Shown in pieces: positions 13,908-25,321 of a stretch of 52,706 nucleotides of DNA. The position numbers and the translations under genes were made by a program. The stretch's first letter is position 1. Each line of letters begins with the position of its first letter. The notes beneath the pieces are model-generated. The model was not told the origin of the DNA, made no database searches, and worked only from the letters and a program-made list of their open reading frames with translations. The DNA lies in NCBI GenBank assembly GCA_902801255.1, contig CADCHO010000010.1:1-52706 (forward strand). Direction: 5' to 3'. Source of the DNA: an uncultured Eubacteriales bacterium (GTDB lineage: Bacteria > Bacillota > Clostridia > Peptostreptococcales > Anaerovoracaceae).

Positions 13908-15452
13908 CTATTCGAGCTCGACCGTCCCCGGCGGTTTGCTGGTCAGATCATAGAAAACCCTGTTGACATGATCGACCTCATTGACGATCCTTGTCATGAC
14001 TCTCTGCAGTACATCCCACGGGATCTCAGCAGCTGTTGCTGTCATGAAATCCGATGTTATCACAGCTCTCAGAGCTATGGCATGGTCGTATGTCCTGAAG
14101 TCTCCCATAACTCCTACTGTCTGCATATTGGTAAGAGCGGCATAGTACTGACTTATCTCTCCTGCGAGCCCCGCCTTGTCGATCTCTTCTCTGTAGATAG
14201 CATCCGCATCCTGCACGATGCGCACTTTCTCAGCTGTTACATCTCCTATGATCCTGACACCCAGTCCCGGTCCCGGGAAAGGCTGCCTGGTGACAAGGTA
14301 TTCCGGCAAACCGAGTTCTCGCCCGAGCTGCCTTACTTCATCCTTGAAAAGCATTCTGAGCGGCTCGATTATCTCCTTGAAGTCAACATAGTCAGGAAGT
14401 CCTCCCACATTGTGATGTGATTTGATGACCGCAGACTTGCCGAGCCCGCTTTCGATGATATCCGGATAGATGGTTCCCTGCGCAAGGAAGTCGACCGCAC
14501 CTATCTTCTTAGACTCCTCTTCGAACACTCTGATAAATTCCTCGCCTATGATCTTACGCTTCTTCTCAGGATCAGTCACTCCTGCGAGTTTAGCATAGAA
14601 TCTCTCGGCCGCATCTACTCTTACGAAGTTAAGATCGAACTGTCCTTCTTTTCCAAATATAGAGGACACCTCATCAGCCTCATTTTTTCTCATCAGGCCG
14701 TGATCAACAAACACACAGGTAAGCTGAGGTCCGATCGCTTTAGCAAGCAAAGCTGCTACAACCGATGAATCAACGCCTCCCGAAAGAGCAAGCAGAACCT
14801 TTCCGTCTCCGACTTTTTCCCTGACAGCAGCGATCTGTGTTTCGGCAAATGAATCCATCTGCCAGTCCTGATCGCATTTGCATACATCAAGGACGAAATC
14901 TCTTATGAACTCAGCTCCGTGCTCTGTATGATTGACCTCCGGATGAAACTGAACGGCGTAGAAGCCTCTGGAGCGGTCTTCCATTGCGGCTACCGGACAG
15001 TCATCAGTATGAGCTGTGATTTCGAATCCTTCCGGTGGTTCGCTGATATAATCTGTATGGCTCATCCAGCATACATTGATATCGTCAGCCGTACGGAGAA
15101 TACCTTTCTTGCCTTCAACGGCAACTTCTGTACGCCCGTATTCACTGGTAGGAGCGGACTCTATTCTTCCTCCGAGTCTGTATGCCATCAACTGTGCCCC
15201 ATAGCAGATACCCAGTATCGGAACGCCCAGTTCGAAAATCCCATCATCTATCGACGGAGCATTCTCACCATATGCGCTCTGAGGTCCGCCGGTAAAAATG
15301 ATACCTTTAGGATCGAATCCGCGTATTCTGTTCAGATCAATGGATTCGTACCCCATGATCTCTGAATAAACACCGCACTCCCTTACCCTTCTGGCGATCA
15401 GCTGATTGTACTGTCCGCCGAAGTCTACAATAAGGATCCTGTTCTCTGCCAT
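13908..15452 (-). CDS. guaA: GMP synthase (glutamine-hydrolysing)
   Basis: Converts XMP, ATP and glutamine to GMP. The full 514-residue two-domain enzyme is present. The class I glutaminase domain has Cys83 in GICYGAQ (usually GICYGMQ), His170 and Glu172 in QFHPEV. The ATP-pyrophosphatase domain has the PP-loop SGGVDSS (224-230), [19 protein letters not shown] and [12 protein letters not shown], and ends in the dimerisation domain [15 protein letters not shown] lies 7 nt before the ATG. It follows metY by 14 nt on the same strand. A second, glutaminase-less GMP synthase is encoded at 22785-23756. Confidence 0.97.
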
Positions 15453-15466
15453 AGAGTTCCTCCTGC

Positions 15467-16744
15467 CTAAAAATCAAGTGCCTGTCTGATATCTTCGATC
15501 AGGTCTTCTTTATCTTCGAGTCCGCAGGACATTCTTACAAGTCCTGCAGGAATGCCTGCAGCTTGAAGCTGCTCATCCGTCATCTGGCGATGTGTTGACG
15601 TAGCCGGATTCAGGCAGCATGTCCTTGCATCAGCAACATGAGTCTCGATCGCTGCGAGTCTGAGACGTCCCATAAACTTTTCTGCAGCCTGTCTGTCTTC
15701 AAGTTCAAACGAAACGACTCCGCAGCCGCCATCAGGCAAATATTTCTGTGCGATTTCATAATACGGATCATCCGGAAGTCCGGAATAGCTTACCTTCTTG
15801 ACTTTAGAATGATTCGCCAGAAACTCGGCAACTGCCTGTCCGTTCTCTACATGCTTAGGCATGCGGACATGAAGTGACTCAAGTCCCAGATTAAGCAGGA
15901 ATGCGTTCTGAGGTGACTGGATGCTTCCGAAATCTCTCATAAGCTGTGAAGTCGCCTTTGTTATAAATGCTCCTTCATTTCCGAATTTCTCTGCATATAC
16001 GATACCGTGATAGGAATCATCCGGAGTTGTGAGACCAGGGAACTTGTCCTTATGAGCCATCCAGTCGAACTTGCCTGAATCGATAATGGCTCCACCGACT
16101 GCGGCACCATGTCCGTCAAGATATTTGGTCGTCGAGTGTGTGACGATATCCGCTCCCCATTCTATAGGCCTGCAGTTGACAGGAGTCGGGAAAGTATTAT
16201 CTACAATAAGAGGCACACCGTGCTCATGCGCAGCCTTTGCAAACTTCTCGATGTCCAGGACAGTAAGCGCAGGGTTAGCTATGGTCTCACCGAAAACTGC
16301 CTTTGTATTATCCCTGAATGCAGCATTCAGTTCCTCCTCTGTACAGTCCGGAGAAACAAAGGTTGCACTGATACCCATCTTAGCCATGGTAACTGAGATC
16401 AGATTGAATGTGCCCCCGTAGATCGATGCGGATGAGACGATGTGATCACCTGACTCGCAGATATTGAACAGTGCAAAGAAGTTTGCTGCCTGACCGGATG
16501 AAGTAAGCATTGCTGCTGTGCCGCCCTCCAGAACTGCGAGCTTAGCTGCGACCATGTCGTTGGTCGGGTTCTGAAGTCTGGTGTAAAAATAGCCCGATGC
16601 CTCCAGATCGAACAGCTTGCCCATGTCTTCACTGGTATCATACTTGAAAGTCGTTGACTGTATGATCGGGATCTGCCGTGGTTCTCCATTGCCCGGTGTA
16701 TAGCCTGCCTGAACACATTGTGTACCTAACTTATAGTCTTTCAT
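15467..16744 (-). CDS. metY: O-acetylhomoserine sulfhydrylase (PLP-dependent)
   Basis: Makes homocysteine (or methionine) from O-acetylhomoserine and sulfide or a thiol. The protein has 425 residues from the ATG at 16744, with GGGAGG about 11 nt upstream. PLP-Lys207 is in [12 protein letters not shown]; other Cys/Met metabolism PLP family marks are [26 protein letters not shown] and VDNTFPTP. The length and the long insert after the lysine ([14 protein letters not shown]) fit MetY rather than the shorter MetB/MetC. It is divergent from metA, whose Glu111 predicts that it makes the matching O-acetyl substrate. Confidence 0.93.
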
Positions 16745-16780
16745 ATTCTCTGACACCTCCCTTTTCTTTTTCATAAGAAA

Positions 16781-17917: not shown

Positions 17918-17954
17918 AAGCCGAAGCATTGCACACTGTGCAGTACTTCGGCTT
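17918..17954 (+). terminator. Intrinsic terminator after metA
   Basis: AAGCCGAAG (17918-17926) pairs with CTTCGGCTT (17946-17954); a second GCAC/GTGC stem forms inside the loop. A weak T-rich tail (TCTGTGAGTTTTT) follows. Confidence 0.7.
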
Positions 17955-18096: not shown

Positions 18097-21000
18097 ATGT
18101 CTGACAACAACACAAAAGTCTCAAAGCCGGAATCAATAAAGGAAGCGAACAGATATTTTCTGATTAAAATACTGTTCAACGCATTCCTGATATTTTTCGG
18201 AGCAGTAGTGATAGGAACGTTCCTTACTCAGATGCAGGCACAGACTGCGCTGGTCAAGCAGCAGGAAAACAGCAGACTTGCTCTCGAAGAAGCTGTATCT
18301 GCAATGGACAGCAATGTCCAGAACGCAGATGTTCTGTCTGCGATATTCCATGACGGGAACCAGGATGAACTCGACGATATGTGCCAGCTGTTCTCAAGCG
18401 GTCTGTTTGAGTCGATGGCCGACGAAAGCAGCGAAGAGAGATCAAGAATTTTCGGTGATATGGTCGAGCGCTCCGGTGTGAAATATCTCTTTCTCATGTC
18501 TATGGACGGCAAAATAGCTCTTTCTTCAAGCGCTGACTTATATGGCATTAACCCTGCATCAATGTCGCTTATGACACAGGAGAACATAAACCAGCTGCTC
18601 AAGGGAACGAAAGAAAACGACGGCACTATAAAACCTGTGACTATCAAAAACCGTTACGGCACATTCTATTTCTATTCCATGCCATACCGGTATCGTGGGA
18701 ACACTTACATCCTGTCTCTCGGAACAGAAGCTTCAGTACTCGATGTGCAGATCTCCTCTCTGACGGATGTTTCCGTTGTTCTCAGCAGGATCTCTGTAGG
18801 CAACGATGGCTTCGTTTTCGCGGTAAATAAAGAAGACGGCACATTCATTTATTACAAGAACGGAAACGAGATCCTGACAGGTCAGAAAGCTCTCAGCACC
18901 GGATTATCGGAGGAAGCTCTTACAGACGGGTATTCAGGTATTCAGGTGATCAACGGAGTCAAATATTATTGTGTGTCTAAAGATTACAACGGGCAGACCG
19001 TCATATCTGCTGTAGCCCAGACAGACAAAGTGTATAACCACGACAAGTATGTGCTGTTCTGGACGATCACCGGTTTTGTCCTGATCATGCTGATATGCCT
19101 TGCTTATGCGGTGATAGTCAGGAATGATTTTGTCAAACATGAGGTCATGACGGAAAGAGTAGTTCTTAACAAGAATCCTGATAACAAGCTGTTCTTTGAC
19201 CGCTCCATCTTCAACAAGGTATTTCCGCTTATCATTGCCGGCACTCTTGTAATGTTCGGAATCTCATTCTACACGCAGACACTTCTTGAGATCACAAACG
19301 GAATCGAAAGGTCTGATCTTGCAATCAATGAGGTTTCGGGCAGATATGAGGAAGGTCAGACAAACCGCGGTCTTATTCAGAATTATTATGACAACCGTTT
19401 CCTTTCAAAAGCCAGGCTGATCTCTTTCCTTATCGAAGAGGATCCATCAGTACTTAATGCATCTTCGGAGCATTATCACAATTACTATGATGACAATGGC
19501 AGCAAGCAGTTCATTAAAGACGACGAAGGCAACCGCCTGAAGTCGGTCGCATCCTCAGCCAGACTGCAGGAGCTTTGCGATGCAAATGACATTGATTCTG
19601 TTTATATATTTGATGAAGAAGGTCATACCATCGGAACAAATACTTCCAACTGGTTCTTTACTATAAGTCACAACGAGGAAGACCAGTCTTATCCTTTCCT
19701 TCAGGTTCTTGATGGCAGGACTGACAGCTTTGTACAGGAAGCAATGGAAAACGATCTTGGAGAACCCGCCCAGTATATCGGTGTAGCATTCAACTACTAT
19801 ACAAGAAAAAACGCAGACGGTGATACGGAATATATTTCGAGCTATGAGTATGAACAGGAAGGCGGATCTGATGATATTACAGTTCACAGAAGCATGCTTC
19901 AGATAGGGCTCAAATCCGAAGTATCGGGTAAGCTGTTTGAATCAACGGATGTCGGCAGCATACTTTCGACCAATATGCTTAACGATGGGTTCATGGTCAT
20001 GTTTGACAGCAGTAAAGATCATCGGTGCGTATATTCACCGAACGAGGCAAGCATCGGAAAGAAGGCTTCTTCTCTCGGCGTTTCATCAAAGGCTTTCAGC
20101 GGAGATAAATACTATGGCTTCGTAAATGTCGGAGGAACCGATTATTTCTCATGCTTCCGCTATAATGAAGGCTATTTCATCGGAACAGCTTTTCCTGAAA
20201 AAGAGATGTACAGAGCCCGCTTCATCATTGCATTGATAACATCGATCATTTGCTTCTTGCTTATAACTGTACTGACCGGTACGATCACTCTTACAAACGA
20301 GCATGAAGAAAGGCTGTACTCCACAATGACTGCAGACCAGGCTGCAAAAGGCATGAATTCACCGATCTTCAACATCATGCTTCCATCCGGACGCAGCACA
20401 TCGACCGTACAGGCAGCCGCCAGATGGGATAACCGCCGGATCTCATGGAGTGATAAGAGTCCTGAGCAAAAACTTATAGCAATGGTAACTGCGGTTATAG
20501 CTCTGCTGCTGTTTTATGTGATCATCACGATAGCAGGTGCAGACAAGATATTCGGTGAGAGTTCAATAATCAGATTCATCCTCAGCGGGGCCTGGGACAG
20601 AGGCAATAACATCTTTGCATGGAGCTCATGCGCACTTGTATTTATTACTATAATTATCGGAGTTGAGCTGTTCAGGATACCTGTAAGGATCACGACATCG
20701 CTCCTTGGCGCCAGAGGTGAAACTATAGGCCACCTTCTGCTCTCAGTAGTAAAGTACGGCGGAGCTATCGGAGGACTGTTCTACTGCCTGTATCTGCTTG
20801 GCATCGACTCATCCAAACTCCTTGCCAGTGCCGGTATCCTGTCCCTGATCATAGGCCTTGGAGCACAGAGTCTGATAAAGGATATCATTGCCGGTATCTT
20901 CATTGTATTTGAGGGAGATTTCAGAGTAGGCGATATCGTTACGATCGCAAACTACAGAGGTACAGTTATGGATATCGGTCTCAGAACCACAAAGATACTC

Positions 21001-21438
21001 GGAGCAGACGGCAATATAAAGATCTATAACAACAGTGAGATCTCAGGCATCCTGAATATGACACAGGAGGCGTCCTATGCGTTCTGCAATATCGATATAG
21101 AATACGGGCAGGATCTCGAGTATGTAGAGGAAGTTCTCAACAGAGAGCTCCCTCTGCTTAAGGAGAAGAACCACGCACTTATCGACGTATCTTTTATTGG
21201 TGTTTCCGAGCTCGGAAACAGCGGTGTCACGCTTTCTGTCATTGGTAAGTGTAATGAAAAAGACATCAATTCTGTCAGACGTTTCATCAACAGAGAGCTG
21301 CTGCAGATATTCTACAGGAATGGCATAAACGTTCCGTTCCCGAACATTACATTCTCCTCGCTTGATACAAGCGGACGTAAGACCATCGACGATCTGATTA
21401 AAAAAGAGAATGAGCAAAATGAGGAGAAGGGAGACTGA
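18097..21438 (+). CDS. Large sensor-mechanosensitive channel fusion (MscS family with two extracytoplasmic sensor regions)
   Basis: An 1113-residue membrane protein. Predicted order: membrane helix about 21-45; first outside region about 48-316 with Cache-like patterns (VKYLFLMSMDGKIALSS, VGNDGFVFAVNKEDGTFIYY); helices about 318-342 and 375-398; second outside region about 400-706 with similar patterns (IDSVYIFDEEGHTIGT, LNDGFMVMFDSSKDHRCVYSP); helix about 708-731; then helices about 792-812, 840-860 and 878-902. The C-terminus is a classic MscS domain: the pore helix around residue 909 (LLASAGILSLIIGLGAQ), then DIIAGIFIVFEGDFRVGDIV and the cytoplasmic beta/alpha-beta part. The pattern suggests a ligand-gated or ligand-tuned channel. 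AAGGA precedes the ATG by 9 nt. The next gene begins 2 nt after the stop. Confidence 0.85.
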   Translation: MSDNNTKVSKPESIKEANRYFLIKILFNAFLIFFGAVVIGTFLTQMQAQTALVKQQENSRLALEEAVSAMDSNVQNADVLSAIFHDGNQDELDDMCQLFSSGLFESMADESSEERSRIFGDMVERSGVKYLFLMSMDGKIALSSSADLYGINPASMSLMTQENINQLLKGTKENDGTIKPVTIKNRYGTFYFYSMPYRYRGNTYILSLGTEASVLDVQISSLTDVSVVLSRISVGNDGFVFAVNKEDGTFIYYKNGNEILTGQKALSTGLSEEALTDGYSGIQVINGVKYYCVSKDYNGQTVISAVAQTDKVYNHDKYVLFWTITGFVLIMLICLAYAVIVRNDFVKHEVMTERVVLNKNPDNKLFFDRSIFNKVFPLIIAGTLVMFGISFYTQTLLEITNGIERSDLAINEVSGRYEEGQTNRGLIQNYYDNRFLSKARLISFLIEEDPSVLNASSEHYHNYYDDNGSKQFIKDDEGNRLKSVASSARLQELCDANDIDSVYIFDEEGHTIGTNTSNWFFTISHNEEDQSYPFLQVLDGRTDSFVQEAMENDLGEPAQYIGVAFNYYTRKNADGDTEYISSYEYEQEGGSDDITVHRSMLQIGLKSEVSGKLFESTDVGSILSTNMLNDGFMVMFDSSKDHRCVYSPNEASIGKKASSLGVSSKAFSGDKYYGFVNVGGTDYFSCFRYNEGYFIGTAFPEKEMYRARFIIALITSIICFLLITVLTGTITLTNEHEERLYSTMTADQAAKGMNSPIFNIMLPSGRSTSTVQAAARWDNRRISWSDKSPEQKLIAMVTAVIALLLFYVIITIAGADKIFGESSIIRFILSGAWDRGNNIFAWSSCALVFITIIIGVELFRIPVRITTSLLGARGETIGHLLLSVVKYGGAIGGLFYCLYLLGIDSSKLLASAGILSLIIGLGAQSLIKDIIAGIFIVFEGDFRVGDIVTIANYRGTVMDIGLRTTKILGADGNIKIYNNSEISGILNMTQEASYAFCNIDIEYGQDLEYVEEVLNRELPLLKEKNHALIDVSFIGVSELGNSGVTLSVIGKCNEKDINSVRRFINRELLQIFYRNGINVPFPNITFSSLDTSGRKTIDDLIKKENEQNEEKGD

Positions 21439-21439
21439 T

Positions 21440-22525
21440 ATGAATAAAAAGAATAAACCGGGCCGGGTCCTTTTATCGTTTTTTATGATCATGTTGATCA
21501 CGCTCCTTGCTTCATGCTCCGGGAAAGAACCTGACAGTATCGTAAAAGCTGACACTAATCCCGAGACAGAAACAGTCAGACTTGCGATGTTTCAGAATGG
21601 TCATATTCTGAATGCCATTGCTGAAGAACAGGGATACCTTGAAGATGAGGGTATCAAAGTCGAACACGTTCCTGTAGAGACAGACTCCGAGGTATTCGAA
21701 GGGATAAAAAACGGAACGATAGATGTGGCCTCGAATTCAGGCACTAACCTTCCTCTGCAGCAGATTGCAGACGGACAGGAGCTTACTATATTCGGAGGAT
21801 ATCTGCTTACAGGATGTATGCCGATTTTTGCAAAGGTCGAAACCACGTGGAACGGAATAGAAGATCTTGCCGGCAAGACTATGGCATGTGAGCTGAATAT
21901 GTACGCAGTCTCCGGACCGTTGCTCGATAAGGGATACGATCCGCGTAATGATGTCAAATGGTACGATTCGGAAGACCAATACGACCGTATAAAAGCTGTA
22001 AAAGAAGGTACAGCTGATTACGGTCTGGTCGGTACGCAGCTTAATTATGATATTGACAGCGATCCCGAGCTCAAAGTATGCACTTATGCAAGTGACATTC
22101 TCCCGGACTATTCGTGCTGCCGTGTTGAAGCATCGACGGATTGGGTCAATAACAATCCGAACACAGTTAAAGCACTCCTCAGAGCATGGATCAGAGCACA
22201 GGCATACTACGAAAGCAACCACGAAGAATCAGTAGTGTTCATCAGCGAAACTACCGGACGCGACGAACAGGTTCTAAGGGCGCATATGGATAATCCTCAC
22301 TTTGAAATCAACACAGACCCTATGAAATCTTCAGTTGAAAGAGCATGGGATTATATGGATCGTTTAGGACTGCTTAATGCAGCTTCTAAAAAAATAGATA
22401 TTGACGAACATATCAATACAGAACTTTATAAGGAAGCCCTTGATGAATGCCAGTCAAAGTATGGTGAAGAGAATCCTGCTTTCTACGAAAAAATGCAGTC
22501 TCAGTATTCTGCCAATGATCAATAA
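21440..22525 (+). CDS. Solute-binding lipoprotein (ABC transporter NMT1/THI5-like)
   Basis: A 361-residue lipoprotein from the ATG at 21440, GGGAG 6 nt before it and 1 nt after the channel gene's stop. The signal ends in the lipobox LLASC. The mature protein is a type II periplasmic binding protein: VRLAMFQNGHILNAIAEEQGYLEDEGIKVE, GTIDVASNSG, GGYLLTGCM, WNGIEDLAGKTMA and DYGLVGTQ follow the NMT1/SsuA-like (NitT/TauT) pattern. No permease or ATPase gene is nearby; the partner is an MscS-type channel with two sensor regions. It could deliver ligand to those sensors, or work with a transporter encoded elsewhere. The ligand is unknown. Confidence 0.85.
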   Translation: MNKKNKPGRVLLSFFMIMLITLLASCSGKEPDSIVKADTNPETETVRLAMFQNGHILNAIAEEQGYLEDEGIKVEHVPVETDSEVFEGIKNGTIDVASNSGTNLPLQQIADGQELTIFGGYLLTGCMPIFAKVETTWNGIEDLAGKTMACELNMYAVSGPLLDKGYDPRNDVKWYDSEDQYDRIKAVKEGTADYGLVGTQLNYDIDSDPELKVCTYASDILPDYSCCRVEASTDWVNNNPNTVKALLRAWIRAQAYYESNHEESVVFISETTGRDEQVLRAHMDNPHFEINTDPMKSSVERAWDYMDRLGLLNAASKKIDIDEHINTELYKEALDECQSKYGEENPAFYEKMQSQYSANDQ

Positions 22526-22550
22526 CTACACCGGGACTGATGACAATTAA

Positions 22551-22590
22551 AAATGCCGGACACTGCAGACGCAGAGTTCCGGCATTTTTT
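22551..22590 (+). terminator. Intrinsic terminator after the binding-protein gene
   Basis: AAATGCCGGA (22551-22560) pairs with TCCGGCATTT (22578-22587), followed by more T. It also has an A-run on the other arm, so it may serve the converging gua operon as well. Confidence 0.85.
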
Positions 22591-22784: not shown

Positions 22785-23756
22785 TTACTCAAATTCGATT
22801 GTGCTTACAGGCTTATCCGAGATATCCCACATTACTCTGTTTACGCCGGGTACTGTTTCGATGATGCGATCTCTCATTCTCTTAAGCATCTCCCAAGGAA
22901 TCTCCACCGACTCTGCGGTTACCGCATCAACTGTGTTGATGGCCCTGATAATGACCGGCCAGCCCATATATCTCTTGCCTTCTTTGATTCCTGTCGACTG
23001 CATGTCAGGAATGACTGCAAAATACTGCCATGGCACGTTTTCCATCTTGCCGATCTCTTCTCTTACGATCGCATCGGCTTCTCTGAGAGCTTCGAGTCTG
23101 TCTCTTGTGATGGCGCCAGTGCATCTTACGCCGAGTCCGGGTCCCGGGAATGGCTGTCTGTATACCATGTTGTCAGGAAGTCCGAGTGCAGAGCCTACAA
23201 CTCTTACCTCATCCTTGTAGAGCAGCTTTACAGGCTCAACGAGCTCAAACTGAAGGTCTTCAGGGAGTCCTCCGACGTTATGGTGCGCTTTTACTCCGTC
23301 AGACTCCAGGATATCCGGATAAATTGTTCCCTGTCCGAGGAAAGCGATGCCGTCAAGCTTAGCAGCCTCTTCAGCAAACACATCGATAAACTCCTTGCCG
23401 ATGATCTTACGCTTTGTCTCAGGATCATCAACACCTGCGAGCTTGTCGAGGAATCTGTCTACAGCATCTACGTAAATGAGATTAGCGCCGAGCTCTTCTC
23501 TGAACACTTTGATAACCATCTCAGGCTCGCCCTTGCGAAGCAGGCCGTGATTGACATGAACGCAGACCAGATTGTCACCTATCGCCTTAATAAGCAGTGC
23601 AGCTACTACACTTGAATCAACGCCGCCTGAAAGAGCAAGAAGGACCTTCTTGTCTCCTACCTGAGCCTTGATCTCAGCGAGCTGCTCCTCGATGAACCTG
23701 TCAGCGAGTGCACGTGTAGTGATACGTTCCATTGTTTCCGGTCTGATGTTTCCCAT
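22785..23756 (-). CDS. guaA: GMP synthase ATP-pyrophosphatase subunit, glutaminase-less
   Basis: A 323-residue protein that starts where the glutaminase domain of normal GuaA ends, with GGAGG well placed before its own ATG; it is complete, not a fragment. PP-loop SGGVDSS (43-49), [34 protein letters not shown], and the C-terminal dimerisation domain ending KPVSTIEFE are all kept. This is the architecture of archaeal GuaAb, whose separate glutaminase subunit supplies ammonia. No such subunit gene is in the window, so it may use free ammonia or borrow ammonia. It is 47 nt downstream of guaB, so the two enzymes catalyse consecutive steps IMP to XMP to GMP from one transcript. Confidence 0.9.
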   Translation of the reverse strand: MGNIRPETMERITTRALADRFIEEQLAEIKAQVGDKKVLLALSGGVDSSVVAALLIKAIGDNLVCVHVNHGLLRKGEPEMVIKVFREELGANLIYVDAVDRFLDKLAGVDDPETKRKIIGKEFIDVFAEEAAKLDGIAFLGQGTIYPDILESDGVKAHHNVGGLPEDLQFELVEPVKLLYKDEVRVVGSALGLPDNMVYRQPFPGPGLGVRCTGAITRDRLEALREADAIVREEIGKMENVPWQYFAVIPDMQSTGIKEGKRYMGWPVIIRAINTVDAVTAESVEIPWEMLKRMRDRIIETVPGVNRVMWDISDKPVSTIEFE

Positions 23757-23803: not shown

Positions 23804-25321
23804 TTAGCGTCCGCCGCCCGAGCTGCGGTTAGAAACTTCTTTAAGAATTACATCGTGCGCTCCGCCTTCCACGATGCTGACAGCCGATACGAGAGTCAGC
23901 TTGGCGTTTTTGTGGAATTCAGGGATGGTAAGTGATCCGCAATTGCACATCGTGGACTTTACCTTGCCCAGCGACACCTGTACGTTATCGTGGAGCGACC
24001 CGGCATACGGCACGTACGAATCTACGCCTTCTTCAAATTTAAGCTTGGCGTCTCCGCCTAAATCGTATCTCTGCCAGTTGCGTGCTCTTGCTGAACCCTC
24101 CCCCCAGTACTCCTTGACATAGGTTCCGTTGAGCATGAGCTTTGCGGAAGGCGATTCATCAAATCTTGCAAAGTATCTGCCGAGCATAATGAAGTCCGCG
24201 CCCATTGCAAGCGCAAGAGTCATGTGATAATCATAAACGATACCGCCGTCAGAGCAGATCGGTACATATACGCCCGTCTTTTTATAGTATTCATCTCTTG
24301 CCTGTGCTACCTCTATTACAGCTGAAGCCTGTCCGCGTCCGATGCCCTTCTGCTCACGGGTGATGCAGATGGAACCGCCGCCGATACCGACCTTTACGAA
24401 GTCAGCACCGCAGTCAGCGAGGAAGTTGAATCCGTCAGCATCAACAACATTGCCGGCGCCTACCTTGACCGTATCGCCGTAGTTGTCTCTGATCCACTTG
24501 AGTGTCACTGCCTGCCACTCGGAGTATCCCTCGGAAGAATCGATAGTCAGCACATCAACTCCTGCCTTGAGCAGCGCCGGTACTCTTTCCTTATAGTCTC
24601 TGGTGTTGATGCCTGCTCCGACGATATACCTCTTGTCTTCATCGAGCAGCTCCAGCGGATGCTCTTTATGCGAGTCATAGTCCTTGCGGAACACGAAAGA
24701 AGTAAGTCTCTGGTTTTCATCAATGATAGGCAGCTGATTTACCTTATTGTCCCAGAGAAGATCGTTTGCCTCGGAAAGAGTGATACCCTCTTTTCCGTAT
24801 ACCATATTATCAAAAGGCGTCATGAACTCGGAGACTTTTACATCGCGGCTCATGCGGGAGACCCTGTAATCCTTGCTTGTTACGATGCCAAGGAGCTTGC
24901 CGTCAGCTGTGCCGTCTTCGGTAATTGCGATAGTGGAATGTCCCTTGGCCGCTTTCAGATCGAGTACATCCTGAAGAGTCGCATCAGGCTTAAGGTTGGA
25001 ATCACTTGGTACGAAGCCCGCCTTGTAGCTCTTGGCCTTTCTGACCATTTCTGCCTGGCTTTCTATGGACTGCGAACCGAATATGAACGAGATGCCGCCC
25101 TCTTTTGCAAGAGCAACAGCCATGTTGTTGTCAGAAACAGCCTGCATGACAGCGGATGTCAGAGGAATGTTCATTGACAGAGCCGGTTCCTCGCCTTTTC
25201 TGTATCTGACTACCGGAGTCTTCAGTGATACGTTCTCAGGCCTTGCATCCATTCCGGAGTATCCCGGAATAAGCAGATATTCATTGAAAGTTCTTGATGG
25301 TTCCTTAAGAACAGTCGCCAT
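23804..25321 (-). CDS. guaB: IMP dehydrogenase, Tritrichomonas foetus-like type
   Basis: Oxidises IMP to XMP with NAD+. The 505-residue protein contains a CBS-pair insert (about 105-220) in the TIM barrel. Its sequence follows the protozoan T. foetus enzyme more than B. subtilis GuaB: the catalytic loop is [20 protein letters not shown] (Cys319) instead of GPGSICTTR, and the flap is [15 protein letters not shown] with Arg418-Tyr419. Position numbers match the T. foetus enzyme exactly as I recall it, including Asp261, Lys310, Arg382 and Glu431. Lys310/Glu431 are the residues linked to weak mycophenolic acid binding there. AGAGG precedes the ATG. It begins the gua operon. Confidence 0.93.

Follow-up and report, generated by a model that had tools for sequence, protein, structure and literature searches.

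Bacterial binding proteins feed importers, kinases, chemoreceptors and enzymes that handle cyclic di-GMP (c-di-GMP). In this study, we analysed a DNA stretch of 52,706 nucleotides (the window; contig CADCHO010000010.1, assembly GCA_902801255.1) from an uncultured Eubacteriales bacterium of the family Anaerovoracaceae, in which the gene for an MscS-family channel is directly followed by the gene for a NitT/TauT-type binding lipoprotein. Precedents are NspS-MbaA (PMC8079147) and CuaD-CuaS of Ruminiclostridium (PMC10384115), in which a receptor in the membrane is reported to be fed by a binding protein from the neighbouring gene. The window pair has the same arrangement, a binding protein encoded beside a receptor and without its own importer. 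The output of NspS-MbaA and CuaD-CuaSR is c-di-GMP turnover or a kinase and their interaction has been reported, whereas for the window pair the interaction is predicted and the output would be a pore. The parts are known and assisted sensing is known; the pore as an output would be new. In the open-access literature, covered by title and opening of the abstract, we found nothing relevant on MscS channels with Cache domains or binding-protein partners, and the accessible part of PMC8846402 has nothing on MscS. This agrees with the original prediction, made from the sequence of the window, to which no description of such a system was known.

We propose that the two genes are a dedicated two-gene unit and that the lipoprotein regulates the channel, giving a binding-protein-assisted, ligand-modulated MscS channel. 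We put the probability of this reading at about 45%. It builds on the demonstrated domain make-up, co-location, co-inheritance and selection of the two genes, from which we infer docking, ligand dependence and a gating output. The lipoprotein, of a family otherwise seen in ATP-binding cassette (ABC) importer gene clusters, would bind a small extracellular solute and, loaded (or empty), would dock on one dCache-like sensor module of the channel. Docking would shift the opening of the MscS pore, the output being gating (tension threshold or open probability). The lipoprotein would most likely be an outer co-receptor that, when solute-loaded, contacts a dCache-like module and changes MscS gating. 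More tentatively, the pair may be a ligand-gated MscS-pore channel, run by a separate lipoprotein docking on dCache-type sensors and releasing cytoplasmic solutes or ions upon an outside compound. If true, this would be a prokaryotic counterpart in logic to receptor channels. A channel as output would let cells respond to an outside compound directly and fast, by electrical or osmotic means, and would account for the large outer sensor domains found on some MscS channels. The small size and the conservation of the pair make it suitable for a direct test by reconstitution.

Domain make-up of the channel and the lipoprotein

The channel open reading frame (ORF) is open and intact, and encodes 1113 residues (Table 1). 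The MscS beta-domain model PF00924 matched at 52.4 bits against a cut-off of 20.2, residues 895-1086 aligned to solved MscS structures (E 1.1e-30), and an alignment with the solved MscS 3t9n (E 9.9e-32) took in the pore helix and the C-terminal region. PF21082 on the C-terminal domain was weak, scoring 13.2 bits, which is below its cut-off of 21. The pore helix TM3 region and the beta-domain were the most conserved part of the channel. Going by these matches, the ORF encodes an MscS-family channel, for which a heptamer and opening by tension are predicted. It shares the pore helix, the beta-domain and the C-terminal region with MscS (E. coli MscS, 3t9n; alignment over residues 895-1086), but carries in front of them some 790 residues that hold two dCache-like modules and further transmembrane (TM) helices. 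MscK and MscM are long as well, but none of their solved chains was matched at E 1 by the sensor-region profile.

Hydropathy analysis gave single TM segments near residues 21-39, 323-341, 375-393, 709-727, 794-812 and 845-863, with the MscS TM2/TM3 region coming after them at 880-948. On this predicted topology, residues 44-318 and 394-704 are two outer regions bracketed by membrane segments. The pore is thus predicted to be preceded by two outer regions, as in the original prediction. Fold comparison suggests that they are Cache-like, with the best support for sensor 2; the window protein stays below every Pfam Cache cut-off. On the window protein no Cache model scored above cut-off (sCache_3_2, 12.1 of 28.4 bits); sensor 1 alone matched dCache_1 at E 1.1e-5 with 25.6 of 45 bits, below cut-off, and sensor 2 alone matched no Cache model at E 0.1. 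Among the family members, dCache_1 matched sensor 1 in 19 of 26 (best 6.2e-7) and sensor 2 in 8 of 25 (best 9.6e-7), and unrelated families reached 0.00085 in a like scan. The sensor 1 and sensor 2 profiles were homologous to each other (hhalign E 5.8e-16, probability 98.6, 253 columns).

The Foldseek comparison of the sensor model pointed to dCache, with the two-lobed Cache fold found for sensor 2. In absolute terms, these matches were weak (E no better than 1.9e-6; TM-scores of 0.10-0.20 by model length and at most 0.49 by target length), and some PAS proteins were among the 50 matches listed. Searching solved sequences with the sensor profile gave one chance-level match (E 0.21). The sensor region thus resembles the dCache chemoreceptors and kinases (McpB, PctA/B, Mlp24, PscC) in fold, best supported for sensor 2. 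Unlike in those proteins, the output is a channel and not a methyl-accepting or kinase module, and two modules stand in series.

The lipoprotein ORF (361 residues) is also open and intact. Its match to PF09084 NMT1 (52.7 bits, cut-off 20.5) identifies a NitT/TauT-type binding protein, and its predicted fold (mean pLDDT 82.3) had SsuA, ThiY, Thi5 and TauA as Foldseek neighbours. Cysteine 26 of the lipobox was invariant in two alignments of 8 rows. With the start taken at 21440, the gap to the channel gene is 1 nt; the mechanical ORF list puts this start at 21410. Neither a permease nor an ATPase was found beside the lipoprotein among the ORFs of 14-28 kb of the window. The downstream partner and the missing adjoining permease were thus described correctly in the original prediction. 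The lipoprotein is like the NitT/TauT ABC binding proteins (SsuA, TauA, ThiY) in family and fold. It differs from them in having no adjoining permease or ATPase, and a permease of the class was not found in eight of the nine genomes that carry the pair.

Co-inheritance and selection of the gene pair

The co-occurrence of the two genes was examined in 99 genomes, namely the window's own, 46 congeners and 52 others. A full-length channel orthologue (at least 50% identity) was present in 8 of the 99 (G000, G003, G009, G022, G023, G033, G038 and G040); the copy in G002 is cut by the contig end, and G044 has a remnant. A close lipoprotein orthologue (at least 62% identity to that of the window, itself included) was also present in 8 of the 99, and all eight lie directly beside the channel. 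With L093, which comes from a named genome collection outside the 99, the pair occurs in nine species (window, G002, G003, G022, G023, G033, G038, G040 and L093), which are probably one Mogibacterium-like gut clade of the Anaerovoracaceae. Locus labels were assigned to genomes by inference (L079, G023; L080, G038; L081, G040; L082, G022; L099, G033; L100, G003; L102, G044; L103, G009).

The intergenic gaps were 1-48 nt in the eight pairs measured, with start codons chosen by eye. We compared the neighbourhoods of eight loci, the short contig of G002 being left out, using genes of at least 120 residues and matches of 40% identity over half the length. Six neighbourhoods were found: L079, L080 and L100 share flanks, and the window, L081, L082, L093 and L099 are each distinct. 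Across these six, the pair was the only adjacent set in common, so the proposed co-occurrence held up. A further match was between pyridoxal phosphate (PLP) enzymes near the window pair and the L093 pair (41% identical), both near the channel and not next to it. Chance adjacency was rejected because the pair is kept in six different neighbourhoods.

The lipoprotein-bearing channels formed one clade (SH-aLRT 94, quick tree), as did the nine orphan binding proteins (95/99). Channel and lipoprotein distances were correlated over eight species (r 0.91, Mantel p 0.0002), and mean protein identity among pairs was 68% and 65% for the two genes. Since the lipoprotein-bearing channels are one clade, a single gain of the partner, retained ever after save in G044, is the simplest history. 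The ratio of nonsynonymous to synonymous substitution (dN/dS) in three species pairs was about 0.1 for the lipoprotein (0.092/0.946, 0.104/1.152 and 0.095/0.979) and for the channel (0.049/0.451, 0.107/0.923 and 0.113/0.983). These estimates indicate purifying selection on both genes in the three species pairs measured. With intact frames and dN/dS near 0.1, a broken or decaying gene was rejected.

In G044 (L102:9950-10639), the first 194 residues of the channel are directly joined to the last 31 of the lipoprotein, and the rest of both is gone. This remnant probably reflects a single deletion through both genes; an assembly fault is the alternative.

Permease partners and competing explanations

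For the original prediction, a permease-ATPase pair encoded elsewhere and clearly partnering with the lipoprotein would count against the proposal. In G003, G007 and G014, a binding protein 40-41% identical to the lipoprotein lies in a complete ABC operon of ATPase, binding protein and permease (Pfam assignment shown for that of G003). G003 is the one pair genome with such a separate, complete operon including its own binding protein. In 398 genomes drawn from the phylum, relatives of the lipoprotein (E 1e-30 or better) were found in eight genomes besides its own, from seven families. At all eight loci the stretch also holds a permease of the class, and at seven an ATPase (none seen at G414). 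The permease is next or next but one to the relative in seven, and in G284 it is on the same strand but separated from the relative by four ORFs.

A profile of eight NitT/TauT permeases found those of G003, G007 and G014 at 5e-96 to 2e-94. These are easy controls, because the G003 permease is a query row and the other two are 92-93% identical; more distant permeases of the class in G003 and G014 still scored 7e-28 and 7e-29. In the other eight of the nine pair genomes, the best matches to this profile were at E 3.2e-6 to 1.6e-4, and we infer that they belong to other classes of permease. A query with the genus's own permease gave no match at E 0.001 in the five pair genomes covered besides G003, namely G000, G002, G022, G023 and G033. 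In the genome of the window, the general permease family PF00528 matched 13 times, 12 of these above cut-off. Hence no cognate transporter was found beside the lipoprotein and no permease of the class in eight of nine pair genomes; the ATPase was not searched genome-wide.

The channel was also followed beyond the genus. Of 27 loci, 8 are genus genomes already counted, 1 is L093, and 18 are others. Among these 18, 13 are readable downstream (L084, L085, L087, L088, L089, L090, L091, L092, L094, L095, L096, L101 and L104), 4 end too soon (L083, L086, L097 and L098), and 1 is a distant relative (L105). The channel copy of L084 has two stops. No relatives of the lipoprotein were found at any of the 18 (blastp at 1e-3, ORFs of at least 80 residues). 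A general rule that this channel comes with the lipoprotein was rejected, as it is false outside one clade.

At L090 (13372-18343, Erysipelotrichaceae), the genes after the channel encode an unrelated lipoprotein, an ABC permease and an ATPase. This lipoprotein has no Pfam or NCBIfam match, and the best model for the permease is a 2-aminoethylphosphonate permease, below cut-off. L104 shares an upstream gene with L090 (by eye) but has no such lipoprotein, permease or ATPase. The Oscillospiraceae relatives of the channel at L095:9968-13900 and L096:9968-13900 are about 200 residues longer (1310 residues).

Several results weigh against the proposal that the lipoprotein regulates the channel. In all 13 readable loci outside the genus, the channel stands without a relative of the lipoprotein. 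The same holds for the congener G009, in which the next gene is an alpha/beta-hydrolase lipoprotein. The channel can therefore work without the lipoprotein, the sensors do not need one everywhere, and the lipoprotein is a once-gained accessory. Co-inheritance alone yields a high distance correlation. The pair genomes are drafts, 76-97% complete (L093 outside this figure; G022 95%, G023 97%), so the absence of a permease is not final; a permease may be missed in single genomes, and this is unlikely in all. Clade-specific residues gave no docking map: 11 sites in the binding-protein clade were spread over the protein, 4 in sensor 1 and 3 in sensor 2, against 2 in the control clade of eight Erysipelotrichaceae rows. 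Moreover, a published study (PMC11113362) found that a binding-protein gene and a sensor-kinase gene can be neighbours without a functional link. Thus, for the originally predicted ligand-presenting lipoprotein and gated channel, the anatomy, the co-occurrence and the permease tests spoke in favour, and the existence of the channel without the lipoprotein spoke against.

These results also bear on three other explanations. The dCache-like modules may bind their own ligands and gate or tune the channel, with the lipoprotein co-expressed in a common stress or niche response and without contact. Channels of the same build without the lipoprotein, in other families and in G009, fit this explanation, as do the dCache domains of chemoreceptors that bind ligands directly (solved complexes are among the fold matches). 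We hold it to be somewhat unlikely, as the lipoprotein has stayed next to the channel in six neighbourhoods and the search for its importer partner found none. It is rather unlikely that the lipoprotein feeds a permease encoded elsewhere, as part of a distant or cross-used ABC importer, with the channel as an osmotic valve within that regulon. Its nearest relatives do sit in ABC clusters, in three genomes of the genus and at eight of eight loci from other families, and the PF00528 matches of the window's genome and weak permease matches in every pair genome point the same way. Against this stand the eight pair genomes, including the 95% and 97% complete G022 and G023, without a NitT/TauT-class match better than E 3.2e-6, and the five in which the genus permease query was unmatched.

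The six neighbourhoods and the one origin would also be expected of a mobile two-gene cassette, joined once in a donor and travelling without a continuing functional link. This seems quite improbable, since the short gaps were kept while the proteins diverged to a mean identity of 68% and 65% with dN/dS near 0.1 in both, and since the sole loss seen, in G044, resembles a deletion through both genes.

Possible ligand, transcription unit and neighbouring genes

For both the lipoprotein and its relatives the sulfonate-family profile gave the highest score, and for the relatives taurine- or sulfonate-type profiles came second, all below cut-off; for the SsuA subfamily TIGR01728 (SsuA_fam), the lipoprotein reached 65.6 bits of the 163.5 required. 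Because it scores best with SsuA-like profiles, our guess from sequence is that the ligand class could be a sulfonate, taurine or another sulfur-containing solute. A Cys/Met PLP enzyme is encoded at 15467-16774, one gene away from the window pair, another lies near the pair of L093, and a TauE-family gene adjoins the pair of G040. The other pair loci have other neighbours, and the sulfur or taurine idea therefore stays a lead. At L161, L163, L166 and L069, ABC clusters with relatives of the lipoprotein lie near corrinoid methyltransferase- or Cys/Met-enzyme-like genes (by eye), which is a possible hint at the ligand class.

Hairpins lie on both sides of the pair, consistent with a two-gene transcription unit (Table 1). 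A pattern scan listed neither of them, and a promoter scan was uninformative (5 sites against 9.0 expected).

Table 1. Positions of the channel, the lipoprotein and their flanking hairpins in the window
Feature	Position	Strand	Basis
Hairpin 3' of preceding gene, possible terminator between that gene and the two-gene unit	17918..17954	+	fold -22.9 kcal/mol, z -3.96
Channel gene, N-terminal double sensor and C-terminal MscS channel, 1113 aa	18097..21438	+	ORF, Pfam, alignment to solved MscS
TM1, residues 21-39	18157..18213	+	hydropathy
Sensor 1, residues 44-318, dCache-like, predicted extracytoplasmic	18226..19050	+	
TM2, residues 323-341	19063..19119	+	hydropathy
TM3, residues 375-393	19219..19275	+	hydropathy
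Sensor 2, residues 394-704, dCache-like, predicted extracytoplasmic	19276..20208	+	
TM4, residues 709-727	20221..20277	+	hydropathy
TM5 and MscS TM1/TM2 region, residues 794-898	20476..20790	+	hydropathy; MscS alignment
MscS pore helix TM3 region, residues 901-938	20797..20910	+	alignment to solved MscS 3t9n; conservation
MscS beta-domain, residues 926-987	20872..21057	+	PF00924
MscS C-terminal domain, residues 997-1078	21085..21330	+	PF21082 below cut-off; MscS alignment to residue 1086
Orphan NitT/TauT-type binding lipoprotein, 361 aa	21440..22525	+	PF09084; Foldseek SsuA/ThiY/TauA
Lipobox LASC, lipid-anchor cysteine at residue 26	21506..21517	+	read from sequence; cysteine invariant
Hairpin then T run, just 3' of lipoprotein gene, probable terminator of the two-gene unit	22549..22590	+	fold -25.8 kcal/mol, z -6.86

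At L072:342-6981 (G000:C1), L076:6252-12992 and L077:6322-13030, a hybrid histidine kinase gene is directly followed by a second long MscS gene (about 950-960 residues). By Pfam, the L072 kinase has SBP_bac_3 twice, HisKA and two receiver domains; those of L076 and L077 were judged by size and a near-identical start. The second-type channels of L072 and of the similar L075 gave weak dCache_1 signals, and the L075 channel has no hybrid kinase neighbour. In G033 (L099:7330-9786), a PAS-bearing hybrid kinase precedes the channel-lipoprotein pair on the same strand, and its kinase/receiver part shows 53% identity to the corresponding part of the kinase that adjoins the second channel in the genome of the window.

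Two GMP-synthase-like genes, named by eye from the sequence, flank the window pair at 13908-15452 and 22785-23756; by eye, one is full-length and the other resembles the synthase part alone. An IMP-dehydrogenase-like gene (by eye) lies at 23804-25321.

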